Shown here: positions 17,569 to 40,368 of the stretch, one piece after another
How the letters are laid out: every line of letters starts with the position of its first letter
Position numbering within the stretch: position 1 is the stretch's first letter
NCBI GenBank assembly: GCA_014730345.1
Contig: WJIJ01000063.1
Span: forward strand, 1 to 50,721
Reading direction: 5' to 3'
Source of the DNA: Candidatus Zixiibacteriota bacterium
GTDB taxonomy: Bacteria; Zixibacteria; MSB-5A5; UM-FILTER-46-8
DNA length: 50,721 nucleotides
Translations under genes and position numbers: made by a program
Notes under the pieces: generated by a model
Database searches by the model: none
What the model was told of the DNA's origin: nothing
The model's input: the letters and a program-made list of their open reading frames with translations, nothing else

Positions 17569-18021
17569 TTAAAACGCCCTGGTCATTATTAACGCGTCTT
17601 CGTTCGGTCTACTATAATAATTTCGGCGGATATTCTCCACCGTAAAGCCGAATCTTTTATACAAATTAATGGCGGGTTGATTGCTTTGCCGGACTTCGAG
17701 CCAGCAGTAAGCACAACCGCGCTGTTTCGCGTCCGTAAATATAAATTTTAATAATTCAGTTCCCAAGCCTTTTTTTTGATATTTTGAATCAATAGCGAAA
17801 TTCGCTATCTGGCATTCATCTTCGATTATGTATATAACCGCGTAACCGATAACCTGTTCGGCGGATTCAATTACCCAGTTGAACGAATATGAAGAATTGA
17901 GTTCGACGGCAAAGGAGTAATCGGGCCACGGATTAGAGAAGAGCTCATGCTCAAGCTCGATTATCCGGGGCAGGTCGTCAATAGTCATACCCCTGATGTT
18001 ATAATCAACTTCGCGGTTCAT
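17569..18021 (-). CDS. rimI: GNAT N-acetyltransferase, RimI-like
   Basis: 150 residues from the ATG at 18021, which overlaps the tsaB stop as ATGA; the longer frame to 18126 runs inside tsaB and is rejected. It has the GNAT core, with the acetyl-CoA pyrophosphate-binding segment KYQKKGLGTELL and the C-terminal AINLYKRFGF motif typical of RimI. RimI acetylates the N-terminus of ribosomal protein S18 in E. coli and is often encoded beside tsaB/tsaD; the substrate here is inferred. Confidence 0.9.
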   Translation of the reverse strand: MNREVDYNIRGMTIDDLPRIIELEHELFSNPWPDYSFAVELNSSYSFNWVIESAEQVIGYAVIYIIEDECQIANFAIDSKYQKKGLGTELLKFIFTDAKQRGCAYCWLEVRQSNQPAINLYKRFGFTVENIRRNYYSRPNEDALIMTRAF

Positions 18022-18680
18022 TTTGGTTTTTTGGCGTCGGGTTCCCGGAGATAGCAGGGCGTTGAGTTTTCTATATCGAGTAAAATCCCCGAATTGTAGT
18101 TTTGCAAAGTTAACTCGGAAATACATCCAGTATCCGGGAAAAGGAGTTGTTTCCCCGCTAATGTAAACTTTTTTCGGAGGTTTTTATCCAGTTTACTGAT
18201 GCCCGGGCCTGTAATTATCGCGTCATCGGGGATGCCCGAAACCACTTTTGCCCTGTCTAAAGTCGAAGGAATTTCAATTGTATCCAGTTTATTGTTATCC
18301 CTGCGATATACGGCCCTATAAAATTGCCCCCGGCGGGCGTCGATTATTGGAACTATTGTCCCGGGATTTTTTATCATGTTGGCGATAGCAAGCGTTGAGT
18401 GTATGCCGGTTATTGGAGTATTGAATGGATGCGCCAATCCTTTCGCCGCCGAAAGGGCTACCCGCAGTCCGGTGAAACTTCCCGGTCCTTCGATAAATCC
18501 AATGAGGTTGACATCTCCGGGCTTAATGCGGGCTTCATCGAAAACTTCTCTTATATAGGAATGCACGGTAGATGTTGAGCCCCTGCGGATATCGAATATT
18601 CTCTCCGCTGCTACCGAACCATCGATGGCAATCCCGGTTGCCCCTCTCTCCATGGATGTATCGATTACAAAAACTTTCAT
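18018..18680 (-). CDS. tsaB: tRNA threonylcarbamoyladenosine biosynthesis protein TsaB
   Basis: Scaffold partner of TsaD in the complex that makes t6A37 on ANN-decoding tRNAs. The 220-residue ASKHA-fold protein has the N-terminal VIDTSMERG strand-loop and the GPGSFTGLRVALSAAKGLA motif diagnostic of TsaB. It overlaps tsaE upstream and rimI downstream by 4 nt each. tsaD and tsaC are not in the window. Confidence 0.95.
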   Translation of the reverse strand: MKVFVIDTSMERGATGIAIDGSVAAERIFDIRRGSTSTVHSYIREVFDEARIKPGDVNLIGFIEGPGSFTGLRVALSAAKGLAHPFNTPITGIHSTLAIANMIKNPGTIVPIIDARRGQFYRAVYRRDNNKLDTIEIPSTLDRAKVVSGIPDDAIITGPGISKLDKNLRKKFTLAGKQLLFPDTGCISELTLQNYNSGILLDIENSTPCYLREPDAKKPK

Positions 18681-19102
18681 CTTTCTATCTCGATTTCACG
18701 AGTGGATTCATCGATGATTATTATTTTTATCTTAATTGCATTTCCCGGAATACTGCCCTCAAGTTTTTCACCCCACTCGATCAATGTTATATCGCCGCTT
18801 TCGAATAACTCATCCAGTCCAAGTCCCGCGAGTTCGGTTTCTCCCTCAATCCGATACAGGTCGACATGATTAACTATTAAGCCGCGGCCCGGGTATGTAT
18901 TTACCAGGGTATAAGAAGGACTGCTGACTTCCGCAGCCGGGCTTAGCCGGGAGCAAATTCCGCGAATAAGCACCGTTTTACCGGCTCCAAGCTCGCCTGT
19001 AAAAGAAATAATATCGCCCGGTTTTAACTCTTCGGCGAGTTTAACGCCTAAGGCAAATGTTTCGTTTTCGTCAAAAGTCCTGCTTTTTAGGGCGCCAACC
19101 AT
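18677..19102 (-). CDS. tsaE: tRNA threonylcarbamoyladenosine biosynthesis ATPase TsaE
   Basis: P-loop ATPase required for turnover of the TsaBD complex. The 141-residue product has Walker A GELGAGKT at 36-43, the SSPSYTLVNTY segment and the VDLYRIEG motif of the family. It starts 3 nt after porX ends and its stop overlaps tsaB (ATGA), so this housekeeping trio is embedded in the same transcript as the PorXY-like pair. Confidence 0.96.
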   Translation of the reverse strand: MVGALKSRTFDENETFALGVKLAEELKPGDIISFTGELGAGKTVLIRGICSRLSPAAEVSSPSYTLVNTYPGRGLIVNHVDLYRIEGETELAGLGLDELFESGDITLIEWGEKLEGSIPGNAIKIKIIIIDESTREIEIER

Positions 19103-19105
19103 ACA

Positions 19106-20662
19106 TCAGGCATTCTTAGGTTTAAGGGTTGCCACCGGCAAAACCATCTCCTGTATAGAGATTCCGCCGTGTTGGAAACTGTTCTGGTAGTAACGCTGGT
19201 ACTCATGGAAATTAGTCGGATAAACGAAATAATAATCTTCCAGCGCAAATAAATATGTTGTATGCCCGGTGAAGTAGGGAAGGTGGTACTTTTCCGGTTT
19301 TTTCAAAAGGATGGCATGTTTCTCATCGCAGTTTAGATTGTCACCATATTTATATCGCAGATTGGTGGAAGTGTCCTTCCTGCCGTAGGCAACTGTGCCT
19401 TTAGTTCCCAGTATAGAGCCATGGTCGGTGGTTATAACGATAGTGCACTTTTTGGAAGAAAGCTCACGCAGTATGGTGTATAGCGGAGAGTGTAAGAACC
19501 AGGATTTCATAAGAGACCGGAAAGCCGATTCGTCGGGAGCGATTTCCTGCAGGATTTCGGATTCGGACCGGCCATGAGCGAGCATATCAATAAAGTTATA
19601 AACGATAGACAACATTGGAGTATTCAGGTAATTATCCAGTTTTTTCAGCAGGTTTTCGCCTTCAGCCTGTTCGAGAATTTTAACATATTTATGGTCGGTT
19701 TTAAATTTCAGTTTCAGTCTTACCAGTTGTTGTTCAAGAAACTGGCTTTCATGGCGGTTGAGAGAACTTTCCGAATCCCCGGGTTTGAAACTGTCAGGGA
19801 TAAGTTTGCTGAACGAGTCCGGGAATAAACCGGAAAAGATGGCATTTCTCGAGAACGGCGTTGCGGTGGGCAATATTGAATAGTAAAGGTCGCGGTTGAT
19901 ATTATAATATTCATTAAGGAGCTCTTCGATAATAAGCCATTGGTCGAGACGCATACAATCTATTACAATAAACACCACCGGATACGTAGTATCCATAAGG
20001 TGGGGGGCTACGTATTTACGGATTATATCAACAGATAGCGTCGGCCTGTCCTCCGATTGCATCCAAGTGGGATAATTGCGATCGATGTACCTGCCGAACT
20101 CGAGATTGGCTTCCCGGTCCTGTCCTTCAACGGTCTGCTTCAAACCGAGGTCGGGGAAGTTATCAATTTCAATATCACGCCGGGCCAATGTCAGCCCAAG
20201 GTCAAGCCAGTCTTTCCAGTTCATGGGACCGGATAGCATCATGGATATCCTGTTGAAATCCTTGATATATTGCTGGGTCAGATGGTTGCCCATAATCTTT
20301 TTGGCTTCGAGGAATTTTTTAGTCAGGGATAAAATCTGGGATGGGTTAACCGGTTTGGTAAGGTAATCATCTATTTTTTTGCCGATAGCTTCTTCCATAA
20401 GGTGCTCTTCCTCGGATTTAGTTACCATAACCACCGGCAGGGCAGGTTGAATATCCTTGATTTCCTCGAGGGTGGTCAAGCCATCCTTTCCGGGCATCAT
20501 CTCATCTAATAGAACAAGGTCGAAAGCCTGCTCTTTGACCATGTTTATAGCGTCATCCCCATTGGCGGCGGGAGTTACATCATAGCCTTTTTCCTTGAGA
20601 AACAGTATATGGGCTTGAAGCTGGTCGATTTCATCATCGACCCACAATATTTTCTTTTTCAT
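19106..20662 (-). CDS. porX: PorX-like response regulator with PglZ phosphohydrolase domain
   Basis: The 518-residue protein has a receiver domain (about 1-120; acidic pair Asp9/Asp10, phosphoacceptor Asp53, Lys103) and a C-terminal PglZ domain of the alkaline phosphatase superfamily. Candidate metal/active-site residues are all kept: Asp235 in IVIDCMRLD, the threonine of TATPFSRN (about 268), Asp359 and His363, Asp413-His414 in TTDHGS and His498 in QHGG. This architecture defines PorX, which in Bacteroidetes regulates type IX secretion genes and whose PglZ domain cleaves oligonucleotide-type phosphodiesters. The cognate-looking kinase is encoded 17 nt upstream. The PglZ domain is not a sign of a BREX system here. 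Confidence 0.92.
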   Translation of the reverse strand: MKKKILWVDDEIDQLQAHILFLKEKGYDVTPAANGDDAINMVKEQAFDLVLLDEMMPGKDGLTTLEEIKDIQPALPVVMVTKSEEEHLMEEAIGKKIDDYLTKPVNPSQILSLTKKFLEAKKIMGNHLTQQYIKDFNRISMMLSGPMNWKDWLDLGLTLARRDIEIDNFPDLGLKQTVEGQDREANLEFGRYIDRNYPTWMQSEDRPTLSVDIIRKYVAPHLMDTTYPVVFIVIDCMRLDQWLIIEELLNEYYNINRDLYYSILPTATPFSRNAIFSGLFPDSFSKLIPDSFKPGDSESSLNRHESQFLEQQLVRLKLKFKTDHKYVKILEQAEGENLLKKLDNYLNTPMLSIVYNFIDMLAHGRSESEILQEIAPDESAFRSLMKSWFLHSPLYTILRELSSKKCTIVITTDHGSILGTKGTVAYGRKDTSTNLRYKYGDNLNCDEKHAILLKKPEKYHLPYFTGHTTYLFALEDYYFVYPTNFHEYQRYYQNSFQHGGISIQEMVLPVATLKPKNA

Positions 20663-20679
20663 TACGAACCTGTTTCAGT

Positions 20680-21930
20680 TTAAGTTGCCGGAAGCGTTAT
20701 TTCAAAGGCGGTTCTCCGTGCCGGCACGCTTTCAACCAGCCGTATTTTACCGCCATGATACTCTTCTATAATTCTCTTGGCAAGCGTTAATCCCAGTCCC
20801 CACCCGCGTTTTTTACTGGTAACGCCGGGATAGAATATCCGTTTCTGCATACGAGGGGGTATGCCCCTGCCATTATCGGATACTATTAACTTAACGCAGT
20901 TTTTATCCTCGCATGGTTTGGTTTCCACCATAATCCTGCCGAAGTCCGGTTTGATGGCTTCAAGAGAATTCTTCACCAGGTTTTCAATAACCCATGAGAT
21001 TAACTCGTCATTAACCCTGACCTCTTTGACTTCGCCATATCTGCCAATAAGGTCGACGCCTTTTCCCTGGTTGGGAATCCTGGTGGTAAAGTAATCAATA
21101 ACCTCGTTAACTATCTTGTTGATATCCGCGTTTTTAAGTTCAGGGATCGAGCCGATTTGTCCGAACCTGTTAGCGATCTTCTCCAGCCGGTGTACATCGC
21201 TGAGCATTTTATCGGTAATGTCGGAAATATTCATTTCCTCCAATCCCGCCGCGGGCGAATCACCTTCTTTAATTTTCATCCTGATGAGTTCAAGCCAACC
21301 CAGAAGCGAGGAAAGGGGGGTACCCAATTGATGAGCGGTCTCTTTAGCCATACCCACCCAGATAGACCTCTGTTCACTGCGTTTAATATTCCGGAAAACG
21401 AAAATAGCTATCCAAACAAAAGCGGCAACGACGGCTCCTTCTACAAACGGCATCCAGCGCAACTGCTGTACTATAGGCGAGTCGCCGTAATGCAGGTAAT
21501 GAATGATGCTTTTTCTATCCTCGCCATAGTATATGGGAATCGGGTTGTACATTTTGTCCATTTCAGCAAGGATTGTTTTAAGCTTATCCTTTGATTTCAT
21601 CGTGGTATCATCGGCGGCAATTCCAACACCCTTCCAGAACTGGGGATCATTTTGGGGGTCGGTGATTATAATGGGGAAATTGCTTTTCTGGATAACTTCC
21701 TCGAAGATAACATTTATCTCCGGGCCGGACGATGGGTCGGAGGCGGCTAATTGCCAGAGCCGGGCGTAAACCCCCGAAATCCTGACCACGTCTTCTTTAA
21801 GGCCATTGATGATGTTCTGGGTGTATAAAACGAAGACCATCACGAAACCGGCCATCCCTACAATCAAGAACAGCTTGAAGAGCAGAGTGTATTTGGTATA
21901 TGCCGGTGAACCTTTAGGGAATATTTCCAT
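20680..21930 (-). CDS. porY: PorY-like sensor histidine kinase
   Basis: 416 residues: TM1 at about 16-37, a periplasmic region to about 160, TM2 at about 161-180, then a HisKA domain with phosphoacceptor His200 in AKETAHQLGTPLSSL and a HATPase domain with N-box ENLVKNSLEAI and DNGRGIPP/GWGLGL motifs. The ETAHQLGTPLSSLLGW H-box closely resembles that of PorY-type kinases. In Porphyromonas porX and porY are not adjacent; here they are, 17 nt apart, which supports a cognate pair. The start is 6 nt downstream of serS. The signal sensed is unknown. Confidence 0.85.
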   Translation of the reverse strand: MEIFPKGSPAYTKYTLLFKLFLIVGMAGFVMVFVLYTQNIINGLKEDVVRISGVYARLWQLAASDPSSGPEINVIFEEVIQKSNFPIIITDPQNDPQFWKGVGIAADDTTMKSKDKLKTILAEMDKMYNPIPIYYGEDRKSIIHYLHYGDSPIVQQLRWMPFVEGAVVAAFVWIAIFVFRNIKRSEQRSIWVGMAKETAHQLGTPLSSLLGWLELIRMKIKEGDSPAAGLEEMNISDITDKMLSDVHRLEKIANRFGQIGSIPELKNADINKIVNEVIDYFTTRIPNQGKGVDLIGRYGEVKEVRVNDELISWVIENLVKNSLEAIKPDFGRIMVETKPCEDKNCVKLIVSDNGRGIPPRMQKRIFYPGVTSKKRGWGLGLTLAKRIIEEYHGGKIRLVESVPARRTAFEITLPAT

Positions 21931-21936
21931 TTTTAT

Positions 21937-23208
21937 TTACGCTTCGATGTATTCGATTCCATTCATGTAACCGCGAAGGACCTCCGGTATTTTAATCCGG
22001 CCGTCGCGAGTCTGGTAATTTTCTATAATGGCTATCATGGTCCTCGGCAAGGCCAGCGCGGAACCGTTTAAGGTATGCACAAACATGGGTTTGGTATCCG
22101 GCGACGGCTTAAACCTGATGTTCGCCCTGCGCGCCTGGAAATCCTCAAAATTCGAACATGAGGATACCTCCAGGTATTTATCCACTCCCGCGGAATAAAC
22201 CTCGAGGTCATAACACTTGGCGGCGGCGAAAGATAGATCTGCTGTACACAGGATAGCTTTTCTATACGGAAGGTTCAACGTCCTGAGTACATATTCGGCT
22301 TCTGATGTAAGTTTTTCCAGTTCGTCATAGGAGTTATCCGGGTGGCAGATTTTAACCAACTCCACTTTATCGAATTGGTGTACGCGTATCAATCCGCGGG
22401 TGTCTTTGCCGTGGGAGCCTGCTTCCCTGCGGAAACATGGCGTATAAGATTCGTAATATATGGGAAGCTGATCCGCGGTCAGGATTTCGCCCTTGTGAAG
22501 ATTGGTAACCGGAACTTCGGCGGTCGGAATCAAGAACATGTCATCGGAAGTGGAGTACATGTCATCTTCAAGCTTGGGAAGTTGGCCTGTTCCGGTCATG
22601 GTCTCGCGGGTAACCAGGTAGGGGACTCGCAGTTCACAGTAACCGTGTTTTTCACGATGCAAGTCCAGCATGTAATTGATAAGCGCGCGTTGAAGTTTCG
22701 CCCCGGCTCCTTTTAGAACAGGGAAACCGCTTCCGGAGACATTAGCTCCCCGGGGCAGATCGATAATATCGAGTATTTCGCCGAGTTCCCAATGAGTTCG
22801 AGGTTTAAAATCAAAGGCGGGTTTTTCTCCCCACTCGTCGATTTTCATGTTATCTTCCTCGCCGCCGCCTACAGGGGTATCCGGATGGGGGATATTGGGG
22901 ATGGTCAGCAGAGCCGATGATAATTTCTCCCCGACTTCCCTCAACTCGTTATCCATATCCGAAATCCTGTTGGAAACTTCTTTCATTTTCTTCACGATAT
23001 CGCCGGCATCTTCACCCTTCTTTTTTAATTCGCCGATCTTCTTACTGGCGGTATTCCTCTCGGCTTTGAGAACTTCCACTTCATTGATGATTTCCCGGCG
23101 TCTTTTATCGAGGTCGAGGATAGCATCAACATCGCCGCTTTCTTTTTTATTATTAACGGCTTCTTTAACTCGTTCCGGATTTTCCCTTATGAATTTTAAA
23201 TCCAGCAT
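21937..23208 (-). CDS. serS: Seryl-tRNA synthetase
   Basis: Class II synthetase charging tRNA-Ser. The 423-residue product has the N-terminal antiparallel coiled-coil arm (about 30-105), motif 2 FRREAGSHGKDTRGLIRVHQF and motif 3 with LNGSALALPRTMIAIIENYQ. An AGGAG lies 10 nt before the ATG. It sits between the polysaccharide genes and the PorXY-like pair in one direction, with short gaps of 41 and 6 nt. Confidence 0.98.
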   Translation of the reverse strand: MLDLKFIRENPERVKEAVNNKKESGDVDAILDLDKRRREIINEVEVLKAERNTASKKIGELKKKGEDAGDIVKKMKEVSNRISDMDNELREVGEKLSSALLTIPNIPHPDTPVGGGEEDNMKIDEWGEKPAFDFKPRTHWELGEILDIIDLPRGANVSGSGFPVLKGAGAKLQRALINYMLDLHREKHGYCELRVPYLVTRETMTGTGQLPKLEDDMYSTSDDMFLIPTAEVPVTNLHKGEILTADQLPIYYESYTPCFRREAGSHGKDTRGLIRVHQFDKVELVKICHPDNSYDELEKLTSEAEYVLRTLNLPYRKAILCTADLSFAAAKCYDLEVYSAGVDKYLEVSSCSNFEDFQARRANIRFKPSPDTKPMFVHTLNGSALALPRTMIAIIENYQTRDGRIKIPEVLRGYMNGIEYIEA

Positions 23209-23249: not shown

Positions 23250-25616
23250 TCAATTCCCGTATGAAAGCCTCTTGGTCCAAAAATTAAGCATACCCGACAA
23301 TATAATTGTGAAATCGGTCAGCATGGACATTTGTTCGAGATATTTTAAATCCTTATCAAGACCTTCCCTTGAAAAAGAGATTCCCTTATCGTTTCTTCCG
23401 AGCAAGGAGGCAAAACTTATAATGCCTGGTTTTACAGCCCAACGACGCTTATACAGGGGATGTTCCGCGGATAGCTTTTTGCCCCTTTCCAGAGGGTCGG
23501 GTGTCGGGCCCACCAAGCTCATTTTTCCCGTTAAAACCGAAATAAGCGCGGGAAGGCGTTCGAGCCCGGTAAACCTTAAAAATCTTCCCCAGAAAGATTC
23601 GGGCTTGTGATAAATCAATTTATCAATGTCTCCGCTGAATTCCATGTTCGATACGCGGAACTTTGGTATCCTTATAATTTCCCGCCCCTGCCCATAATAA
23701 GAATTGAATATGAGGGGGTTGCCGCCTACATTCAATTTAATCATGATAAATGAAATAATAAACATGGGGGAAGTTATAATCAAGAGGAACGCGGAAACTA
23801 CAAGATCCGTCAACCTCTTAGCGCCCCATTCCCATGTCCGCAGTCTGTCAGGATATATTTTTAACATTTCCGTATAATAAAGTTTTTCGGTTTTCAGTCC
23901 CCGAATATAGTTTTTCATTTCGGGGAAGATCTTGAACTGGATTTCCATCAAGTTGCCAAGACGGACAATCTCGTGAATGAAATCGCTCTCTTCGCCGGAT
24001 TCAAGGATAACTATATCCGTAACCCGGTATTTTTTAATCAGGCGGCTTAAATCAGCGATATTTCCGAGGGCATCCTTATCCTCCTCATTAATGCCGATTC
24101 TGCCGACAATCTCTACGGCTAAATTAGGTTTGTCGCTCAATACGCGTTTGAACCATTCCTCCGTTTTCGATGTACCGATTATGAATGTGCGCCTTTTAAG
24201 TTTTCCGCCTGTATACCGCATGGCAATAAGTTTCAAGATGATTCCCCTGGAAAATCCGACGCAGGTTATAATCAGTATAGCGTAAATGGAAAGGTACAAC
24301 AACCAATCTATATTGGATGATGAAAAATCAAGCGAAAGGACGATAAATACCGCAATCCCCAATAAAACCGACTTCGTAAGTTTTATCAACTCAACCCTGA
24401 AAAACCGGTCCCAGGTGAAATCATACTGTCCGAGTATACCAAAGAGAAACAGCCAGTAAAATGTTATCCAGACTAACCCCGGTATAAAATCCATCAGCTG
24501 CAGGGGAGTGGTAACCTGAAATATTCCAGAGGAATATTTGATGAAATAGAATGCCAGGAACGCCAGGTTTAACCCGAGGGTATCAGCGAACAGTAAAACC
24601 AGTTTTTCCCTGACATTGGCGAAATTCCTGCTAAGGTGAACACCGAAGACCAATAGTAAAAAGGCTACGACTACCACGGTGATAAGCTTCCATGTGGAAT
24701 CGGAACTGAGATAGAGGATATTTCCCAGAATAGCCAGCAGAAAGCATATAGCGAAAATTCCCCAGACGGCTTTACTGCTCCGGATTCCGAGATTTACCAG
24801 CCGGTGGGATGTGTGGTCTTTGCCGCCCTGGGAGAGCGAACGGCCTTCCCGAAAGCGGGTGAAAGTTACAAAGCTGATATCGAAAAGAGGGTAACTCATA
24901 ATCAAAAGCGGAGTAAGCAAGTCCTGCGGATTGGGATGGGATATCGCGAAAACGATACCCATGGAAGCCAGGGAATAACCGAGGAACATACTCCCGGCGT
25001 CTCCGAGGAATATCTTGGCGGGATTGAAATTGAAATACATAAAACCGGTGAGGGCGCCCATTAAGGCTACGCCGGTTATCACCAGGAATGTTTCATTGGA
25101 AAGCATACCCAGTACCGCGAAACCGAGGGCGGCGCAGAATGATATACCTGAACACAAGCCATCCATATTATCGAGAAAATTCAAGGCGTTCATCAGGGTA
25201 ATCATCCACATGCCGGCGATAGTGAAATCAAGGGGGGTATTCATTAGGATACCACCCGCCCTGCTGAAAGTTAAAAAAAGTATCGCGGTGAGTATCTGCC
25301 CGAAGAGTTTACTGCCGGGGGTCATACCCAGGCCATCGTCTATAAGCCCGATGATTGTAATCATTATGGCTCCGGCGGTAAACCCGGTGAAAACTCCGTC
25401 GAGTTCGATGGACGATACGACATATCCGAGGGCGAATGCTACGGCGAATCCCAGAAATACCGCCATGCCTCCCAGCAACGGGGTGGGGACAACGTGTATT
25501 TTGCGCGAGCTGGGTTTATCTAAAAAACTGGTGCGATGCGCTGTTCTAATAGCGACAGGCGTTAGGCTGAGGGCTGATATAAATGACAGGAAAAGAATCG
25601 CTATAAGCAGATACAT
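23250..25616 (-). CDS. Fusion of WecA/MraY-like and WbaP-like phosphoglycosyl transferases
   Basis: The 788-residue membrane protein joins two initiators of glycan synthesis. Residues 1-320 are a polytopic WecA/TagO-like PNPT transferase with a full set of motifs: Asp93-Asp94 in LIDDGLG, NFLDNMDG at 146-153, GDAGS at 205-209 and KDHTSHRL at 266-273. Residues 330-470 add further helices. Residues 475-585 form a nucleotide-binding-like domain, as in WbaP-type proteins, followed by a C-terminal bacterial sugar transferase domain (KRLTDLVVS at 600, KFRVSN at 652, MSLVGP at 699). In that domain the usual Asp-Glu catalytic dyad reads Glu686-Arg687 (TGLERLPAL), and GPRP reads GPTP. The first half therefore looks active and transfers a HexNAc- or hexose-1-P to a polyprenyl phosphate; the second may be inactive or altered. 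Confidence 0.88.
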   Translation of the reverse strand: MYLLIAILFLSFISALSLTPVAIRTAHRTSFLDKPSSRKIHVVPTPLLGGMAVFLGFAVAFALGYVVSSIELDGVFTGFTAGAIMITIIGLIDDGLGMTPGSKLFGQILTAILFLTFSRAGGILMNTPLDFTIAGMWMITLMNALNFLDNMDGLCSGISFCAALGFAVLGMLSNETFLVITGVALMGALTGFMYFNFNPAKIFLGDAGSMFLGYSLASMGIVFAISHPNPQDLLTPLLIMSYPLFDISFVTFTRFREGRSLSQGGKDHTSHRLVNLGIRSSKAVWGIFAICFLLAILGNILYLSSDSTWKLITVVVVAFLLLVFGVHLSRNFANVREKLVLLFADTLGLNLAFLAFYFIKYSSGIFQVTTPLQLMDFIPGLVWITFYWLFLFGILGQYDFTWDRFFRVELIKLTKSVLLGIAVFIVLSLDFSSSNIDWLLYLSIYAILIITCVGFSRGIILKLIAMRYTGGKLKRRTFIIGTSKTEEWFKRVLSDKPNLAVEIVGRIGINEEDKDALGNIADLSRLIKKYRVTDIVILESGEESDFIHEIVRLGNLMEIQFKIFPEMKNYIRGLKTEKLYYTEMLKIYPDRLRTWEWGAKRLTDLVVSAFLLIITSPMFIISFIMIKLNVGGNPLIFNSYYGQGREIIRIPKFRVSNMEFSGDIDKLIYHKPESFWGRFLRFTGLERLPALISVLTGKMSLVGPTPDPLERGKKLSAEHPLYKRRWAVKPGIISFASLLGRNDKGISFSREGLDKDLKYLEQMSMLTDFTIILSGMLNFWTKRLSYGN

Positions 25617-25629: not shown

Positions 25630-26589
25630 TTATTTTTTATAATATTCTATTATCTGCTGTATCGTCGTCCGCAAATCGATCTGGGGCGAATAACCGATAT
25701 AATTCGATATCTTGGTGATGTCCGGCACCCGGCGGCGCATATCCTCGAAACCGGAAACGTACGCTTCATCATAAGGGATATATTGAATTTCCGAATCGCT
25801 TTCGGTCATTTCTTTTACAAGTTTAGCCAGGTCTTCAATCGTTATCTCGTCGCCGGTGCCGATATTGAAAACCTGACCGATAGCTTCTTCCTTTTTCATA
25901 AGCTCCTGCAAACCCCAGACGACATCGGAAACATTTGTAAAGCATCTCGATTGTTTTCCATCTCCGAAAACGGTGATAGGGTGCTTGAGCAACGCCTGCT
26001 GAACGAAATTTGGAACGACCATACCGTATCTTCCTGTTTGGCGCGGTCCAACCGTGTTGAAAAGCCGGGCGATGATGATGGGCAGTTTCTTTTCATGATA
26101 ATAGGCAAGGCCCAAAAATTCGTCAATAGCCTTGGAACAGGCGTAAGACCAACGGCTTTTTATTGTCGGACCGAATACCGAGTCGTTGTCTTCCTGAAAC
26201 GGTATATTATCGGATTTGCCATACACTTCCGAGGTTGACGCGATCAATGTTCGCTTTTTATAGCGGTTCGCCAGTTTGAGCACAATCTCGGTTCCGATTA
26301 TATTTGTTTCGATAGTTTCAACCGGATTTTCAATTATCAGGCGAACACCCACCGCGGCGGCGAGATGATAGACAACATCGCACTCCTGTATCAATTCCGT
26401 CATTAACGGTTCATTCAATATGGTGTCAATGTGAACTGATAAATCGGGATTATCGCGCAAGTGTTTTATATTTTCAAGTTTACCGGTCGACAGGTTATCG
26501 ACGATAATTACTTTATGTCCCTTTTTCAGAAGGCTTTCGGTAAGATGAGAGCCGACAAATCCGGCTCCTCCGGTTATAAGAGACACCAT
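25630..26589 (-). CDS. NAD-dependent nucleotide-sugar epimerase/dehydratase (extended SDR)
   Basis: 319 residues with the Rossmann motif GGAGFVGS (7-14), an STSEVYG segment and the catalytic Tyr149-x3-Lys153 (YACSK). The ARLFNTVGPRQ and CFTNVSDVV patterns resemble UDP-glucuronate decarboxylase/UDP-glucose epimerase-type enzymes. The exact substrate cannot be read from the sequence. It sits 13 nt upstream of the PGT fusion and 17 nt downstream of the GmhB-like gene, so it probably feeds the polysaccharide. Confidence 0.88.
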   Translation of the reverse strand: MVSLITGGAGFVGSHLTESLLKKGHKVIIVDNLSTGKLENIKHLRDNPDLSVHIDTILNEPLMTELIQECDVVYHLAAAVGVRLIIENPVETIETNIIGTEIVLKLANRYKKRTLIASTSEVYGKSDNIPFQEDNDSVFGPTIKSRWSYACSKAIDEFLGLAYYHEKKLPIIIARLFNTVGPRQTGRYGMVVPNFVQQALLKHPITVFGDGKQSRCFTNVSDVVWGLQELMKKEEAIGQVFNIGTGDEITIEDLAKLVKEMTESDSEIQYIPYDEAYVSGFEDMRRRVPDITKISNYIGYSPQIDLRTTIQQIIEYYKK

Positions 26590-26606
26590 CGGACCTCCAA
26601 ATCCTG

Positions 26607-27152
26607 CTAAGGTGATTTATTTATAATATCGGCGGCTTCCAGCAGGGATTCCACTATGTAATCCGCGTATTTCTCGGCGCCGTCGTTGCGTATAAAATCG
26701 TTTTCGCGTACTAAAATAGTCCTGCATCCCGCGTTCCTGCCGGCAAGCATATCAGAAACCATATCGCCAACGAGGTAGGACTGTTTCAGGTCTATATTGA
26801 ATTTATCCTTCATCCGGGTCAGCATACCGGTCTTCGGTTTCCGGCAGTCACAGTTGTCATCGGGATGATGGGGGCAATATACTATATCATCTATGACAAT
26901 TTCAAGCTGTTCCATCACATTCCGGAACCAGTCGTTCAAGGATTGGAAATCCTCTTCTGTATAATAACCGCGGGCAATACCGGACTGGTTGGTGATGACG
27001 ATCTTCAGGTAGTCTTTTGATATCTCCTTTAGGCCATCCAGGGCGCCGGGCAAAAACTCGAACCGGTGATACTGGTATGTGTATTTCCGGTCCCTGTTTA
27101 TAGTTCCATCCCGGTCGATAAAAACAGCTTTTTTGATATTGCCTGGGCTCAT
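26607..27152 (-). CDS. gmhB: D,D-heptose 1,7-bisphosphate phosphatase-like HAD protein
   Basis: A 181-residue HAD-IIIA phosphatase. The catalytic FIDRDGTIN motif holds Asp13 (nucleophile) and Asp15. The zinc-binding loop CPHHPDDNCDC supplies Cys93, a His, Cys101 and Cys103, as in GmhB. GmhB removes the C7 phosphate in ADP/GDP-heptose synthesis. The other heptose genes (gmhA, hldE or hddA/hddC) are not in the window, so a heptose in this polysaccharide is possible but not shown; related HAD-IIIA proteins act on other sugar or histidinol phosphates. Confidence 0.88.
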   Translation of the reverse strand: MSPGNIKKAVFIDRDGTINRDRKYTYQYHRFEFLPGALDGLKEISKDYLKIVITNQSGIARGYYTEEDFQSLNDWFRNVMEQLEIVIDDIVYCPHHPDDNCDCRKPKTGMLTRMKDKFNIDLKQSYLVGDMVSDMLAGRNAGCRTILVRENDFIRNDGAEKYADYIVESLLEAADIINKSP

Positions 27153-27161
27153 TTACATTTC

Positions 27162-28094
27162 CTAAACGGTAGAACGGAAGTACTCGACCGTTTTCAGTAA
27201 TCCCTCATCTAAACCAACAGTAGTTTCGTATTTAAGGTTTTCTCTGGCAAGGGATATATCCGCGAGGGAACGCTTAATATCTCCAGGTTTGGAATCAGTA
27301 TAGATCGGTTTTATCTCGGAGCCTATTATCGAATTCAGTTTGCCCATGAGAATATTTAAGCTGTACTCATCTCCGCAGGCAATGTTCATAACTTTGCCCA
27401 CACCGCCTTCGCTACGGCATGCGAGAAGATTGGCATTGACTACGTTGTCTATGTAGGTAAAATCGCGGGATTGTTCACCATCGCCGTAGATTGTCGGTTG
27501 CTTCCCTTTAAGCAGAGCCGTAATCATTTTGGGAATCACCGCCGAGTATTGTGAATAAGGATTCTGGTTGGGTCCGAATACGTTAAAATATCTAAGGGCA
27601 ACAGTCTCCAGACCATAAAGCTGATAGAATATCCGGCAATAATTCTCACCGGCAAGTTTGCTGATGGCGTAAGGCGAAAGGGGAGAGGGAGGCATGCTTT
27701 CGTTTTTGGGCATAACTTCGGTATCGCCGTATATCGAAGAAGAAGAAGCATATACAAATCTTTTTACCTTATGAAATCTCGCGGCTTCGAGCAGGTTCAA
27801 TGTACCGTTAATATTGACTTCATTGGACGTCAGGGGGTTGTCAATCGACCTCTGCACCGAAGGCAGTGCGGCCTGATGCATAACATAATCAATTCCCTGC
27901 ACCGCCCGATTAACGGTCCAGAAATCCCGTACATCTCCTTCGATAAACTCAATTTGGTCGAGTATCGGCTCTATATTGGAACGGCGCCCGGAAGAGAAGT
28001 TATCAATAACCCTCACGGATTTACCCTGTTCGATTAACTTCCTTACGATGTTCGACCCGATAAAACCGGCACCGCCCGTAACCAGATATTTCAT
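27162..28094 (-). CDS. UDP-HexNAc/hexose 4-epimerase-like SDR
   Basis: 310 residues with GGAGFIGS (7-14), a YASSSSIYG strand and the catalytic Tyr142-x3-Lys146 (YAISK). The HQAALPSVQRS and RYFNVFGPNQ patterns are those of the WbpP/WbgU group of UDP-GlcNAc/GalNAc 4-epimerases. It probably supplies a GalNAc- or Gal-type precursor to the cluster. It lies 9 nt upstream of the GmhB-like gene. Paralogous to the SDR gene at 25.6 kb but clearly divergent from it. Confidence 0.88.
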   Translation of the reverse strand: MKYLVTGGAGFIGSNIVRKLIEQGKSVRVIDNFSSGRRSNIEPILDQIEFIEGDVRDFWTVNRAVQGIDYVMHQAALPSVQRSIDNPLTSNEVNINGTLNLLEAARFHKVKRFVYASSSSIYGDTEVMPKNESMPPSPLSPYAISKLAGENYCRIFYQLYGLETVALRYFNVFGPNQNPYSQYSAVIPKMITALLKGKQPTIYGDGEQSRDFTYIDNVVNANLLACRSEGGVGKVMNIACGDEYSLNILMGKLNSIIGSEIKPIYTDSKPGDIKRSLADISLARENLKYETTVGLDEGLLKTVEYFRSTV

Positions 28095-28133
28095 GCTGTT
28101 CCTACTCCGTATCCAATCGTTCGATACTCGGCG

Positions 28134-29330
28134 CTACTCATTTTCCCGGTGAAAACCTCTCATATTGAGGAATTGAAAATCTTTTTCCGCCATCAATGTT
28201 TCGTACAGATCTTCAATATCTTTTACCAGGCGCGTATACTCCAGATAAGGATATACTTTATTGACAGCGAGAGCGCCGAATTCATTTCTTTTTTCGTTAT
28301 CCTGCGATAATTTCTCGATTTTGCGCGCCAATTCCACGGGGTTCAGCGACGGCACCACGTATCCATTAACCCCGTCATCTATAAGCTCCCGGACGCCGCC
28401 CACATCGGTGGATACTACCGGGACACCGGCGGTCATCGATTCTATGACCGCCACAGGCAAACCTTCATTTAATGAAGAAATAACCGAAATGTCAAGACCT
28501 GAATATATCTTTTCCAGGTCGCGGCGGAAGCCGGTGAAGATGAATTTATCCTCCAGGCCTTCGTCCCTGATTTTTCTCTCGACAGCGTCCCGGAGTTGCC
28601 CGTCGCCGACGATTACGAATTTAATATTATTCGATTTAATTCGGGCGGCGGCATCCACAAGCAGGGCATGGTTCTTAACCGGGACCATACGAGCTATACT
28701 TCCCACCAGTATAGTATCTTCGCCAATACCCAGCTCGCGGCGGAATTGCCCCTTGTATTTTTCAGTTTCGGTAAAACGTTTCAAATCGAGGCCAAGGTGA
28801 ATCGTTATAATTTTCTCCGGTTTGGCGATTCCCCCGGCAATCAAATCACGTCGTACTCTATCAGAGACCGCAATCAGGCAGTCAGATCTCGCCGCGAGAA
28901 TCCGTTCAAGGGTGGCAAAAAAACCGGTCTTAGCTTTACCCCAGTATCCTTTTAAGGTGTGGCCGTGGAATGTATGAACCACCTTCGCGCCACCGGCCAT
29001 AATTGCCGCGCTCCTGCCCAGAAAACCGGCCATAGCCAGGTGGGTATGTACGATATCGGGTTTTTCGCGCCTGATCAATTTGTATAATTTATACAGGGCG
29101 ACCAGGTTCTTTAAAGGGCGTACTTCCCGGCTCATTTCAGGTATAACAACTGAACTTATTCCCCTCGATTCAAGCAGATAATCCATACTGCCCTCGCCCT
29201 CTTCGACCGAACCGCGCACCAGCAGTTTCTCAAACCGGGAATTATTCATATGTTCAGTCAGATAAGTAACATGAAAGGATGGCCCGCCAACATTCATGCG
29301 GGATATAATACGCATCACCTTAATTTTCAT
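28134..29330 (-). CDS. GT4-family glycosyltransferase
   Basis: A GT-B fold retaining glycosyltransferase of about 398 residues. The N-terminal MNVGGPSFHVTYL loop and the C-terminal donor-binding EGLPVAVIESMTAGVPVVSTDVGG (an E-x7-E-type motif) define GT4. The start is set at the ATG at 29330, preceded by AAGG; the TTG at 29336 is less likely. It begins 2 nt after the previous GT4 gene ends. Donor and acceptor sugars are unknown. Confidence 0.9.
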   Translation of the reverse strand: MKIKVMRIISRMNVGGPSFHVTYLTEHMNNSRFEKLLVRGSVEEGEGSMDYLLESRGISSVVIPEMSREVRPLKNLVALYKLYKLIRREKPDIVHTHLAMAGFLGRSAAIMAGGAKVVHTFHGHTLKGYWGKAKTGFFATLERILAARSDCLIAVSDRVRRDLIAGGIAKPEKIITIHLGLDLKRFTETEKYKGQFRRELGIGEDTILVGSIARMVPVKNHALLVDAAARIKSNNIKFVIVGDGQLRDAVERKIRDEGLEDKFIFTGFRRDLEKIYSGLDISVISSLNEGLPVAVIESMTAGVPVVSTDVGGVRELIDDGVNGYVVPSLNPVELARKIEKLSQDNEKRNEFGALAVNKVYPYLEYTRLVKDIEDLYETLMAEKDFQFLNMRGFHRENE

Positions 29331-29332
29331 AA

Positions 29333-30451
29333 TCAAACCTTAAATAGCTCCAGCTGTTTTTCTTTCAATAACCTGACATACAATTCATCATAACTTTCGA
29401 CCGTGCCGGTAATTGAAAATTTATCCACGGCTCTTTCTCGTCCGGCTTCTCCCATCTCTCTCCTGACGGCATCATTTTCAAGCAGGTATTTTAGCTTTTT
29501 AGTGAATTCATTTATATTGCCTTTATCGATTAAAAAGCCATCGATGCCTTCCCTGATAACTTCAGGCAATCCTCCTACCCTGAAAGCGACCACCGGCGTT
29601 TTCATGGCCATCGCTTCCGCGGCTACTATTCCGAAGGACTCATCATGGGACGTCATCATAAATACTTTCCATTGCGTTAGTTTTTGCCGGACTTCCTCCT
29701 GGGAGCATCTGCCAAGGAATTCCACCTTTTCCGCAACTCCCAACTCTCCCGATAATCTATCCAGGTTTGCTCTTTCAGGCCCCTCGCCGATGATTTCGAG
29801 TTTTATTCCGGGGAATTTAACGGCTACTTTTTTTAATATTCTCAATTGGTATTCATATCCTTTGTGACTATATAGATTACCAACCGAACCTATAACCATT
29901 CCTTTTCCCTCAATTGTCTCGCCATTAAAAAACGATGTATCAACACCATTGTATATGGTGATAAATCGCTTCGCTTTCAGTTTCTCGATATTTTTCATCC
30001 TATCGGTGGTAATATCGGAAACGCCGACGAGCGCGTCATCGAAACGGGCGGTAAACCGATCGAGAATGAATCTAATATCTCCCGAATTTTCATTGATGTG
30101 ATAATGCCTTGTGGCTATCAATACCGGAACTCCGGCTATCCTCCCGGCGATACGCCCTAAAACCGACGCCAATAGAAGATGAACATGGACGATATCCGGT
30201 TTCAAACTTTTGATTATGCTCAATACTCTGAAAAATATGAAGGGATGTTTTCTTCCGTTCATAGAAAGATCATAGACGTACCCTCCGTTTTGCTCTATAT
30301 CGCCGGCGAGAGTGCCTTGCTTATCGAGATAGGCGACGTGGATTTCATAGCGGTCCTTATCAAGATATTGCGCGATATTCGAAAGGAGGACTTCCGCGCC
30401 GCCGATCTCAAGTTCATTGATTATGTGGAGTAGTTTTATTTTGCGTTTCAT
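29333..30451 (-). CDS. GT4-family glycosyltransferase
   Basis: 372 residues, GT-B fold. The LEIGGAEVLLSNIA N-terminal loop, the GxVGNLYSHKGYEYQL segment and the E-x7-E-type region ESFGIVAAEAMAMKTPVVAFRVGG are typical of GT4 enzymes in polysaccharide loci. Gaps to both neighbours are under 10 nt, so it is cotranscribed. It adds one sugar to the repeat unit on the cytoplasmic face; specificity unknown. Confidence 0.92.
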   Translation of the reverse strand: MKRKIKLLHIINELEIGGAEVLLSNIAQYLDKDRYEIHVAYLDKQGTLAGDIEQNGGYVYDLSMNGRKHPFIFFRVLSIIKSLKPDIVHVHLLLASVLGRIAGRIAGVPVLIATRHYHINENSGDIRFILDRFTARFDDALVGVSDITTDRMKNIEKLKAKRFITIYNGVDTSFFNGETIEGKGMVIGSVGNLYSHKGYEYQLRILKKVAVKFPGIKLEIIGEGPERANLDRLSGELGVAEKVEFLGRCSQEEVRQKLTQWKVFMMTSHDESFGIVAAEAMAMKTPVVAFRVGGLPEVIREGIDGFLIDKGNINEFTKKLKYLLENDAVRREMGEAGRERAVDKFSITGTVESYDELYVRLLKEKQLELFKV

Positions 30452-30459
30452 TTACACGT

Positions 30460-31632
30460 TTAACTTCTTTGAATCATCAACAATTCGCGCGCGGCGGTTG
30501 CTACTTCCTCAGGGGTTACGGGTTGCAGGCATATATTGCGGGGCATATAACATTTACCGCTGTAGCATGGCCCGCATAAAACTTCCCGGTAAAGAACCCG
30601 TACTTTTTTACCCAGTGGCATAAATGCTTCAATATCTGAAGTACCCATTATCGCCACTACAGGTGTTTTTAGGCCGGCGGCTAAATGGGAAGGACCACTG
30701 TCATTGCCGATTAATAACCTAGCTTGTGAGACGATAGCAATAAACTCAGTCAAATTTATTCCTCCAGCTAGTACCGTAGCTTCACAATCCATGTGGGAGG
30801 CAACTTCTCGGCAAAGTTCGCTTTCATTGGCAGTTCCACAAATAAATGGTTGATATCCGAATTCATCGAAAATCAAGTCCCCCGCACGAGAGAAATTTTT
30901 AGACGACCACCTTTTTCCTTCCCAACTGGCCCCGGGAGCAATAATAAAGTACTTCCCCATCTCAATACCAAGATCTTGGAATTTATGGTATAAACCGTGT
31001 TTCCATTCGTCTTTTACGAATACAGACATTTCATCAGTAACGATTTTTACTCCAATTGAATTAAGGGCCTTTAATATTTTATGTTGATCATGCGTATACT
31101 TATAAAAGCGCGGGGAACGGTTTCTGATCATTAATCTATAGATGTTGATGGTGTCTTTCAAAGCGTACCTTTGCTTTTCCATCCTGAATGAGGCGAAAAT
31201 ATAAAATATAGCTAATACCAGAGTGAATAAATCCGTATATAATTCCACGATTAAATCATAGTTACTTCTTCTCAGTTTTATGAGTAATGTAAAAGCATCA
31301 CGCAGACGCTTAAACAAAGGAAAATCTGGGTTTTTTCGCGAATTATGGAAAGGTATGATTCTGTTAACGTATATATTGGATTCTAATAATGGAAGATAAA
31401 CTTTATCACATACAACTGTTATCTCGGAATGAGGGAAATTATGCCTTAGGTTAGAATACAGCGGTGTAGATATAACCGTATCTCCCAAGAAGTCGTTATT
31501 AATTACCAGAATTTTCTTTATTGTATCTGGATTTTTAATTCGCCGTGGAATATTCAGGTAATACAGAACCATCGATATTACTTTTATGAAAAACCGAAGA
31601 CTTTTTATCTTTTTCTTTAAAAGAAAATTCAT
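30460..31632 (-). CDS. GT9-family (heptosyltransferase-like) glycosyltransferase
   Basis: 390 residues. The opening IKKILVINNDFLGDTVISTPL segment, the PGASWEGKRWSSKNF motif and the nucleotide-binding GNDSGPSHLAAGLKTPVVAIMG are diagnostic of the ADP-heptose:LPS heptosyltransferase family. A four-cysteine C-terminal cluster (CGPCYSGKC and NIC) is also common in the family. Together with a GmhB-like gene 3 kb away it suggests, without proof, a heptose-containing glycan. Base composition here (30.5-32.8 kb) is more AT-rich than in the flanking genes, hinting at a separately acquired segment. Confidence 0.9.
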   Translation of the reverse strand: MNFLLKKKIKSLRFFIKVISMVLYYLNIPRRIKNPDTIKKILVINNDFLGDTVISTPLYSNLRHNFPHSEITVVCDKVYLPLLESNIYVNRIIPFHNSRKNPDFPLFKRLRDAFTLLIKLRRSNYDLIVELYTDLFTLVLAIFYIFASFRMEKQRYALKDTINIYRLMIRNRSPRFYKYTHDQHKILKALNSIGVKIVTDEMSVFVKDEWKHGLYHKFQDLGIEMGKYFIIAPGASWEGKRWSSKNFSRAGDLIFDEFGYQPFICGTANESELCREVASHMDCEATVLAGGINLTEFIAIVSQARLLIGNDSGPSHLAAGLKTPVVAIMGTSDIEAFMPLGKKVRVLYREVLCGPCYSGKCYMPRNICLQPVTPEEVATAARELLMIQRS

Positions 31633-31764
31633 ATTCTACTTAATATGGCAGCAGTTACAAGGACACCAAATTTCCTGACTTTTTTACTAAAAACGATACT
31701 ATCTCAACCAGCGATCTTACGCTTCGTATTCTTATATTCAATTACTCCCATCCTCGAATATACA

Positions 31765-32766
31765 TCAATGAGTAACACTTTTATTATTTAGTATCTTAAA
31801 GGAATCAAATATTCCCCTCAAAATAACCCTTATTTTTCCAAACCTACCATAGACAACAAGCTTTATCAAGGAAAGAAAGGTTCGGATATTTAAAATAAAT
31901 AGTTGCCGTGGTTTGAAATACCGCCTGGTGATAACATAGTTTGTCCGATAAAGAAAATATAATTTTTTATTATCCATTTCCGCCGTTTTAAAAGAGGAGC
32001 TTTCTTTATGGTATACTATACTATTGGGCGCGAAGGCCAGTGAGTACTTTTCCTCTCCCCGTTTAGCCCAGTCAAACTCTTCGCCGAACATAAAATAATT
32101 CTCGCAAAGCAAGCCTACATCTTCTACGAATTCCCTTCTTACGAACATGGATGCGCCCATAACATAATCCATGTCTCTCTCGATACTTTCAGGTTGGAGA
32201 TTTGGTTCGTATTTTCCGCCTTCGCCGATATGGGTAAACCATCCGGTTCGCTTATTGTATTTCGCCCCACCGAGAGCCTGCACTGTATTTTTCTTATCAT
32301 GATAATACAGAATGGTGGAACCGCAAATTCCAGCTTTTTCCTTTCCATCGGTCCTTTTTAAAAGCTCTGCCAAAGCCGAGGGATGAACTACTGTATCATT
32401 GTTCAGTATCCATATATATCCACACTGCTCATCTTTCAATGAATATCGGATTCCGATATTATTACCTCCGGCATAACCCAGATTGTCAGGGGATTTGATT
32501 AGAATCAATTGTCTTTGATTGTTATAACTATCGAACGAGGCGGTACCGAGGATATAAGAACATTCATGGAAATCTAATTGATGATTAGTATTCGCGTTTT
32601 CCTCCAACCATACCGTTATGCGTTCAATGGAATCATCAATAGAAGCATTATCGATTATCAAAATGCGTAACTCTGGGTAGTCGATTTCCAGTAAACTCTG
32701 AAGGCATTCTAAAGTATCTTTCCAGCCATTATAGTTAAGTACCAGTATATAAATCCTAACATTCAT
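31765..32766 (-). CDS. GT2-family glycosyltransferase
   Basis: 333 residues, GT-A fold. The ILVLNYNGWKDTLECLQSL opening, the IDNASIDDS nucleotide-binding loop and the NND form of the metal-binding DXD motif (WILNNDTVVHP) place it in GT2, rhamnosyltransferase-like. A 132-nt AT-rich gap follows, the largest inside the polysaccharide genes, in which I see no clear promoter or terminator. The donor sugar is unknown. Confidence 0.92.
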   Translation of the reverse strand: MNVRIYILVLNYNGWKDTLECLQSLLEIDYPELRILIIDNASIDDSIERITVWLEENANTNHQLDFHECSYILGTASFDSYNNQRQLILIKSPDNLGYAGGNNIGIRYSLKDEQCGYIWILNNDTVVHPSALAELLKRTDGKEKAGICGSTILYYHDKKNTVQALGGAKYNKRTGWFTHIGEGGKYEPNLQPESIERDMDYVMGASMFVRREFVEDVGLLCENYFMFGEEFDWAKRGEEKYSLAFAPNSIVYHKESSSFKTAEMDNKKLYFLYRTNYVITRRYFKPRQLFILNIRTFLSLIKLVVYGRFGKIRVILRGIFDSFKILNNKSVTH

Positions 32767-32779
32767 AACTTATGTGCAT

Positions 32780-33424
32780 TTATTGGTTGCGCGCTCTAAT
32801 TATAAACTGGTTTACAAAGAAATCGGAAAACATCCCTAATGTAATTTTATTAAGAATGTGCATTTTGGTCCCCGAAGGCGGCATGTTTCCCAGTACCGCA
32901 TCGACTTTCATGCCTGAGGATTCCATGAGAGCAACAGCGGTGTCCCGGACGAAGAAGCGCAAATGAGTTTTGTCGAGTAATCCCTCTTCGGTATAATCGA
33001 AGCGTCCGCGGAGAACCAATGGAATAATGACTTTCAAATTTCTTAGATTAGGAATGCTTGTAATAATAACACCATTTTCGGTAAGTAATTTATGCAATCT
33101 GGAAACAATCTTCCACGGATTAACGAGGTGTTCCAGAATATCAAGGCAAAGGATAACATCGATGCTTGAAGGCTGTACGGGCAATTCCATTTCCTCGATA
33201 TTGCCGATGTATACTTCATCAAGGCGTTGCTTTGCCTTTTCCCCGGCGGGATGGAATAACTCGGCCCCCGCCGCCCATTCCATATCGAATGTATTCTTAA
33301 TCCACTCGGCAGTCGTTCCCGTTCCACAGCCAATATCGAGCAGACGTTTTGCTCCGGGGGGAATAAGGGATTTGATCTCTTCCCTTACCAGGGAATAATA
33401 TTCGATTTTCTTTTCGTCATACAT
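32780..33424 (-). CDS. SAM-dependent class I methyltransferase
   Basis: 214 residues with motif I LLDIGCGTGTTAEW, an acidic motif II and a LCLDILEHLVNPW post-II region, as in Methyltransf_11/23-type enzymes. In this context it may methylate a sugar of the repeat unit or cap the chain, but the substrate is not readable. It starts one base after the flippase gene ends. Confidence 0.9.
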   Translation of the reverse strand: MYDEKKIEYYSLVREEIKSLIPPGAKRLLDIGCGTGTTAEWIKNTFDMEWAAGAELFHPAGEKAKQRLDEVYIGNIEEMELPVQPSSIDVILCLDILEHLVNPWKIVSRLHKLLTENGVIITSIPNLRNLKVIIPLVLRGRFDYTEEGLLDKTHLRFFVRDTAVALMESSGMKVDAVLGNMPPSGTKMHILNKITLGMFSDFFVNQFIIRARNQ

Positions 33425-33425
33425 A

Positions 33426-36414: not shown

Positions 36415-37465
36415 TATCCAACACCTCGATAATTCTTGCCGCCGCCGAGTTCTCTATATTCGGCGTTTCGAACGTCTTGCGGGACATATCTTCTATTACC
36501 TCGTCCAGACCGCGTTTTCCCAGCAATACATTAATACCAGCATCGACCGTCTCTACCCACTCGGTTTCATCCCGGAGCGTAATTGTTGGAGTCCCGAAAT
36601 AATATGTCTCCTTCTGCATACCGCCGGAATCGGTTAAAACCATAAAGGCGTTCCTTACGAGGGCTATATTATCAAGATAACCAACAGGTTCAACCAGGTG
36701 CATATTTTCCTTTGATTTTAACTCCATCCATAAATCAGCATTCTTCAATTCTTTTTCCGTACGGGGATGAACCGGGAATACTATTTCTCTATTAATGTTC
36801 TTTATGCCATCTATCAAAAACCTCAAACGGTCATGGTCATCGGTATTTTCGGCGCGATGAATTGTAACGAGTATATATTCTCCCGCGCTCAATCCGATAT
36901 TTTTCAATACTGACGATTTTAGCCCGGCATGTCCCTCGAAAATCCGCAGGGCATCATACATCAGGTCGCCGACAAGGTGAACACCATTGACTATCCCCTC
37001 ATTTTTCAGATTAGCGACAGCTGTTTCAGTCGAGCAGAAAAGTATATCTGAAAGATGGTCGGTCAGAACGCGGTTAATTTCCTCGGGCATTGCGCGAACG
37101 AAACTGCGCATTCCCGCTTCCACGTGAGCGATGCGGAATTTTAATTTGGACGCGGCTAACGCTCCTGCCAATGTTGTATTTGTATCCCCAAAGACTATCA
37201 CCATATCCGGTTTTTCGAACTCGCATATTTCCTCGATACGGATTAATATTTTCGCCGTCTGCAGTCCATGTTTGCCGGACCCTGCGCCGATGTTGTAATC
37301 GGGTTGAGGAAGTTTCAGGTCGCGGAAAAAGCACGCGGATAGGGGGTCATCATAATGTTGTCCTGAATGAACGATCAGGGTTTCATATTTTTCCTGAAGT
37401 CCGGGTAACAGGGGAGCGAGCTTTACGAACTGGGGGCGCGCTCCTACAACACATATTACTTTCAC
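36407..37465 (-). CDS. Non-hydrolysing UDP-HexNAc 2-epimerase (WecB/WbpI-like)
   Basis: 352 residues. The family motifs are clear: VVGARPQFVKLAPL at the N-terminus, HSGQHYD, GDTNTTLAGALAASK, HVEAGMRS, TIHRAEN and DSGGMQKETYYFG. WecB converts UDP-GlcNAc to UDP-ManNAc; WbpI does the same on the 2,3-diacetamido-glucuronate sugar. Because WbpB-, WbpD- and WbpE-like genes follow one another directly upstream, the WbpI role is preferred, though WecB remains possible. The gap to the aminotransferase gene is 8 nt. Confidence 0.92.
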   Translation of the reverse strand: MKVICVVGARPQFVKLAPLLPGLQEKYETLIVHSGQHYDDPLSACFFRDLKLPQPDYNIGAGSGKHGLQTAKILIRIEEICEFEKPDMVIVFGDTNTTLAGALAASKLKFRIAHVEAGMRSFVRAMPEEINRVLTDHLSDILFCSTETAVANLKNEGIVNGVHLVGDLMYDALRIFEGHAGLKSSVLKNIGLSAGEYILVTIHRAENTDDHDRLRFLIDGIKNINREIVFPVHPRTEKELKNADLWMELKSKENMHLVEPVGYLDNIALVRNAFMVLTDSGGMQKETYYFGTPTITLRDETEWVETVDAGINVLLGKRGLDEVIEDMSRKTFETPNIENSAAARIIEVLDNG

Positions 37466-37473
37466 ATTCCCCT

Positions 37474-38574: not shown

Positions 38575-38590
38575 ATTAAAAAACCTCTTT

Positions 38591-39340: not shown

Positions 39341-39358
39341 TTCTATTCTCCATTTAAC

Positions 39359-40366: not shown

Positions 40367-40368
40367 AA

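Follow-up and report, generated by a model that had tools for sequence, protein, structure and literature searches.

A single protein encoded in the window (the whole 50,721-nucleotide stretch of DNA that was analyzed) joins a polytopic phosphoglycosyl transferase (PGT) and a large monotopic PGT in one chain. The open reading frame of 788 residues is uninterrupted and occupies 23250-25616 on the minus strand. We think it rather probable, if far from certain, that the product is an active polytopic initiating PGT that carries a pseudo-monotopic-PGT module for assembly, docking or regulation.

Architecture of the fused chain

An earlier note on this DNA had read both classes of PGT in one polypeptide, and the Pfam domains together with structural matches to MraY, PglC and WbaP bear this out. 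Along the chain, Pfam places Glycos_transf_4 (PF00953) at residues 77-222 (3.5e-28), CoA_binding_3 (PF13727) at residues 395-552 (2e-05, a marginal match right at the curated cut-off) and Bac_transf (PF02397) at residues 600-776 (7.7e-31). Among the NCBIfam models, TIGR03025 (large monotopic PGT) is spanned whole by residues 344-783 and the WecA model is aligned by residues 4-327, both below the curated cut-off. Polysacc_synt_2, which behind bundle and DUF marks dehydratases of the PglF/CapD type, is absent from the window protein in Pfam. In the AlphaFold2 model (pLDDT 71, pTM 0.60), eleven membrane helices precede residue 330 and four more reach to residue 469, followed by a Rossmann-like domain and a re-entrant-helix core. 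Foldseek pairs this single chain with PglC (TM to target 0.80), MraY (up to 0.77) and WbaP, and its polytopic half also with DPAGT1; a viral structure library gave no match at E ≤ 0.001. Given the odd helix count of the N half, the junction between the halves would be cytoplasmic if the N-terminus is periplasmic as in MraY, a placement suited by the count of eleven helices plus four plus the re-entrant helix.

Each of the motifs picked out beforehand (LIDDGLG, NFLDNMDG, GDAGS and KDHTSHRL in the first half, Glu686-Arg687 and GPTP in the second) lies in the protein as described, and the proposed WbaP-type second half with its linker is present as bundle, CoA_binding_3 domain and Bac_transf core, the order that defines a large monotopic PGT. 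A chance reading of motifs is ruled out by Pfam, fold and conservation. The features of the protein and its surroundings are as follows.

23250..25616, minus strand: fused polytopic PGT and putative pseudo-large-monotopic PGT, 788 aa, ATG start, TGA stop
24627..25616, minus strand: polytopic PGT half (WecA/MraY type, Glycos_transf_4), residues 1-330, from Pfam, AlphaFold2, Foldseek and motifs
25335..25340, minus strand: Asp-Asp motif (LIDDGLG), codons 93-94, from motif alignment
25161..25190, minus strand: NALNFLDNMD motif, codons 143-152, from motif alignment
24990..25004, minus strand: GDAGS motif, codons 205-209, from motif alignment
24798..24821, minus strand: KDHTSHRL His loop, codons 266-273, from motif alignment
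24207..24626, minus strand: four-helix membrane bundle of large monotopic PGTs, residues 331-470, from NCBIfam and AlphaFold2
23847..24206, minus strand: CoA_binding_3 (DUF) domain, Rossmann-like, and linker, residues 471-590, from Pfam and AlphaFold2
23250..23846 (stop codon included), minus strand: Bac_transf-like domain, residues 591-788, re-entrant-helix residues intact, active site degenerate
23556..23561, minus strand: Glu-Arg where the catalytic dyad has Asp-Glu, codons 686-687, from phmmer and alignment
23499..23510, minus strand: GPTP at the GPRP position, codons 703-706, from alignment
25630..43477, minus strand: upstream glycan cluster, a complete Wzx/Wzy cluster of which the fusion is the last gene
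17569..23208, minus strand: conserved downstream serS, histidine kinase, PglZ-domain response regulator, tsaE, tsaB and rimI

The N half shares its fold, Asp motifs and His loop with polytopic PGTs such as WecA, TagO and MraY (PF00953), from which the fusion differs by an added C half of 460 residues derived from a monotopic PGT; its DxxD motif reads DNMDG, in contrast to the DGxDG of nearly all stand-alone relatives compared. With large monotopic PGTs such as WbaP, WcaJ and EpsZ (PF13727 and PF02397), the C half shares the order of bundle, DUF and core, the determinants of the re-entrant helix and the core fold, but it lacks the Asp-Glu dyad and the GPRP Arg and stands behind a polytopic PGT. 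The class of Bi-PGTs (bifunctional monotopic PGTs; O'Toole et al. 2021, cited in PMC10942596), in which a second functional domain is attached to a monotopic PGT domain, offers a partial parallel on that description. The window protein likewise has a second functional domain; unlike a Bi-PGT so described, its partner belongs to an unrelated PGT superfamily and its monotopic part is degenerate, the catalytic dyad being absent. We found no description of a polytopic and monotopic PGT fusion in the open papers searched, among which the superfamily's 2021 survey does not figure, and an earlier description is possible.

Active site and fold of the monotopic half

The active site of PglC comprises D93-E94 with K59, R88 and R111 (PMC12802240), and the dyad is reported for every member of the monotopic superfamily (PMC10519829). 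Residues 686-687 had been taken beforehand for the dyad position, and phmmer does align Glu686-Arg687 with the Asp-Glu of the solved PglC and WbaP. The dyad reads D-E in 42/42 stand-alone monotopic PGTs (28/28 of the comparison set and 14/14 from other phyla) and in 0/21 distinct fused Zixibacteria proteins, a count in which L041 and L035, which share a contig, figure once. In twelve of the 21 the nucleophile position holds Glu and the next residue is R, K, Y, L or M; the other nine, from families f10 and f14, have no recognizable dyad segment. The equivalent of R111, the Arg of GPRP, is Arg in 28/28 stand-alone enzymes versus 1/21 fused proteins, where it is mostly T, D, E, Q or K (Thr in the window), and the K59 equivalent is Lys in 28/28 versus 8/21. 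The window protein retains its K59 and R88 equivalents.

It is conceivable that the monotopic half is active with altered chemistry, Glu686 taking the place of the Asp nucleophile. Not only does every one of the 12 distinct fused proteins that retain the segment have Glu, but the window protein also has the K59 and R88 equivalents; against this stand the variety of residues at the second dyad position and at the R111 equivalent, and the complete deletion of the segment in orthologues of two families. We therefore hold this reading to be very improbable for the window protein.

The determinants of the fold are retained throughout. Lys, Asp and Pro of the re-entrant helix are invariant in 21/21 fused proteins, and the equivalent of D168, a residue suggested to stabilize that helix in PglC (PMC12802240), is Asp in 20 and Glu in one of the 21; the window protein keeps all of them. 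Because synonymous sites are saturated in the window's own family, dN/dS was taken from close pairs of other families only, and there the omega of the Bac_transf-like domain, 0.09-0.46, indicates that the domain is maintained. A C half that is a functionless vestige, tolerated after fusion, would account for the lost catalytic residues, as well as for the faster evolution of the monotopic-derived domains in the window's family (39-52% identity versus 72-73% for the polytopic half). It would not, however, lead one to expect uninterrupted full-length reading frames in six families, invariant re-entrant-helix residues or omega well below 1, and we judge it improbable.

The earlier note had left three fates for the second half: it might be a partner without activity, serve in regulation or docking, or work as an enzyme by altered chemistry. 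Comparison strongly favors the first two, since the dyad is lost in 21/21 distinct fused orthologues and its segment deleted in two families, while the fold determinants are kept and purifying selection persists where it can be measured. Altered chemistry cannot be the common function of the family, although it may occur in those members whose nucleophile position holds Glu. That the monotopic half is a pseudoenzyme, suspected of inactivity from its residues, is thus well supported.

The polytopic half, its locus and the origin of the fusion

The window protein has the sequence marks of PF00953: the Pfam match, DD, NxxNxxDxxDG, GDxGS and the His loop. DD, DxxD and GDxGS recur in almost every orthologue; the His loop, present in the window protein and its family, is lost in f14 and in parts of f8, f10 and f16. 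Judged by these motifs, the polytopic half looks active in the window genome, and the N half may be altered in substrate or activity in families where the His loop is altered or lost. Two orthologues of f10, L019 and L021, reverse the pattern of other pairs, with polytopic halves only 47% identical and C-half domains 64-73% identical; perhaps the N half was replaced there or came under altered selection.

Upstream of the fusion, the cluster encodes Poly_export/SLBB (Wza), Wzz, Wzy, Wzx, an oxidoreductase, a hexapeptide transferase, a methyltransferase, epimerases, a HAD phosphatase, a DegT aminotransferase and a UDP-GlcNAc 2-epimerase (Wlb-like), and glycosyltransferases of GT2, GT9 and, twice, GT4. 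Four Wlb-like genes of the cluster are reminiscent of the UDP-diacetamido-uronate route. No second PGT was found in 25630..43477, and because the fusion ends a cluster in which it is the only PGT found, it is probably the initiating enzyme of the adjacent Wzx/Wzy pathway. It is not the cell's only initiator, since stand-alone polytopic and monotopic PGTs are encoded elsewhere in the same genome. Those enzymes, and the loss of the His loop in several orthologues, would be compatible with a protein that is no longer a phosphoglycosyl transferase and serves another step of the pathway. Such a change of role is nevertheless the least probable of the readings weighed here, as the window protein and its family keep all the Asp motifs and the cluster has yielded no other PGT.

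Named relatives place the window's genome in Candidatus Zixibacteria. Orthologues occur in 22 of 133 Zixibacteria genomes (class and phylum), in six families. An alignment-based scan of genome contigs also found the fusion, where a single-protein scan had given none. Full-length single reading frames account for 20 of the 22, the gene being split between two contig ends in G002 and cut by a contig end in G030. An assembly error joining two genes, which the earlier note had named as a possible refutation, is excluded by the recurrence of the full-length fusion in many independent assemblies; frequent fusions, which that note had also named, are not seen, with 22 of 133 genomes in the phylum and six of 386 sampled genomes for the second type described below. 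None of the matching 639 plasmid and 57 phage records aligns with 80% or more of the query at a single place. Two further candidates were set aside: a Patescibacteria match (L048) proved to be a large monotopic PGT of the usual stand-alone kind, with D-E, and a long reading frame in G338, suspected as another fusion, runs through a polytopic PGT and a porphobilinogen-deaminase-like domain. At L133:5246-7291 a polytopic PGT stands in one frame with a porphobilinogen-deaminase-like domain, as either a true fusion or a frame artefact.

Every Zixibacteria orthologue whose contig includes the flank has serS immediately downstream. The order fusion, serS, histidine kinase, PglZ-domain response regulator, tsaE, tsaB, rimI is common to the families where the contig extends, with the exception of L042 (serS only), and the upstream glycan genes differ among fusion-bearing Zixibacteria. 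Outside the phylum, the slot before serS holds a stand-alone polytopic PGT (L136, L141 and L143; L137 with one reading frame between), and their sequences branch next to the fused N halves in the tree. Zixibacteria families without the fusion often have a protein with bundle and DUF at this position, in one case PglF-like with Polysacc_synt_2 present. The fused proteins group together in the trees of both halves, with support of 94 for the N half (just below the 95 mark) and 100 for the C half. On these trees, the simplest history would be that a polytopic PGT at the serS locus gained a C-terminal large monotopic PGT once, in the ancestor of the six families.

The regulatory genes of this locus merit a separate remark. 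At 19106-21930 of the window lie a histidine kinase and a PglZ-domain response regulator that resembles PorX, which regulates the type IX secretion system, and the two are conserved beside serS and the glycan locus in Zixibacteria. The myxobacterial EpsZ is activated through direct binding of a response regulator (PMC12802240); by analogy, a direct link between response regulator and PGT could be pursued here, purely as a lead. At 2412-5771 the window also encodes a protein of 1119 aa with many carboxypeptidase-regulatory-like repeats and a C-terminal sorting domain of the Por_Secre_tail type, features consistent with a type IX secretion substrate.

Proposed function and a second lineage

As we envisage it, the whole protein would act as the initiating PGT of the adjacent Wzx/Wzy glycan cluster. 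Its N half would transfer a sugar 1-phosphate, putatively of HexNAc type, from a UDP-sugar to polyprenyl phosphate. The C half, as a pseudoenzyme, would lie at the cytoplasmic face of the membrane and keep bundle, DUF and re-entrant helix as a module with a role other than catalysis. By analogy, dimerization of the initiating enzyme and docking of downstream glycosyltransferases or of Wzx/Wzz would be the likeliest such role; ligand-dependent control by the module is possible as well. WbaP dimerizes via its DUF and bundle, and its isolated DUF, which is stabilized by UMP, UDP and UTP, appears to sense uridine nucleotides (PMC10942596). Other bacteria have polytopic PGTs of 586-606 aa with only bundle and CoA_binding_3 attached (L131:980-2746, L132:6687-8444, L134:5062-6879), which indicates that the accessory part can travel without the monotopic core. 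Taken together with the activation of EpsZ, these precedents make a non-catalytic role in assembly, docking or regulation the likeliest.

The same precedents might be read more narrowly, with the C half serving mainly as a nucleotide sensor: UMP, which both PGT classes release, or UDP-sugars would bind to its CoA_binding_3 domain, which would then hold back the polytopic half. WbaP is indeed inhibited by UMP (IC50 4.1 uM; PMC10942596), and the stabilization of its DUF and the existence of chains that lack the monotopic core agree with such a function. Sensing alone would, however, give no need to keep the Bac_transf-like domain, and in some close pairs conservation is lower in the DUF, with an omega of 0.99 for the DUF in one pair. 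The glycine loop of the DUF, IIGTSKTEEW in the window, is gone in f10 and f14, though it varies in stand-alone enzymes too and was discarded as a clear marker of nucleotide binding. The lost loop and the omega of 0.99 weigh against the assembly module as well. We consider a predominantly sensory C half unlikely, and continue to prefer the module for assembly, docking or regulation.

A second lineage of fusions, found by searching outward from G327, comprises six proteins of about 825-850 aa in four families (L145, L146 and L153-L156) and was met in six of 386 sampled genomes, which are a sample and not a census. The architecture of polytopic and large monotopic PGT is the same as in Zixibacteria. 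The polytopic halves, in contrast, belong to another subfamily, and the AU test rejects a clade shared with the N halves from Zixibacteria (p 2e-08). The monotopic halves group with the Zixibacteria ones with support of 94, which is not decisive, and may belong with them; monotopic kinship beside polytopic difference would mean that the polytopic part was exchanged or that one monotopic subfamily was fused twice. L145, L146 and L153 keep D-E, and the active sites of both PGT superfamilies are apparently intact. L154-L156 have Tyr-Lys at the dyad and have also lost K59 and R88 while keeping R111, a pattern that differs from the Zixibacteria one, so the dyad was probably lost independently.

More broadly, and only tentatively, the hybrid PGTs might form a distinct class in which a monotopic PGT was joined to polytopic PGTs of two subfamilies, passed through a stage with two intact initiating sites and then lost the monotopic site at least twice, the domain then serving the polytopic enzyme solely as an allosteric or assembly subunit. 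We lean somewhat against so far-reaching a scheme.

We are only starting to understand what the accessory domains of large monotopic PGTs do. An unrelated polytopic PGT on which these domains are kept while the monotopic site is lost sets accessory function apart from catalysis, so that their role can be tested directly. The pattern points to an enzyme turned to a new use in control or docking. In the second lineage, the chains whose two initiating sites both look intact would prompt one to ask whether one enzyme feeds two glycan pathways.
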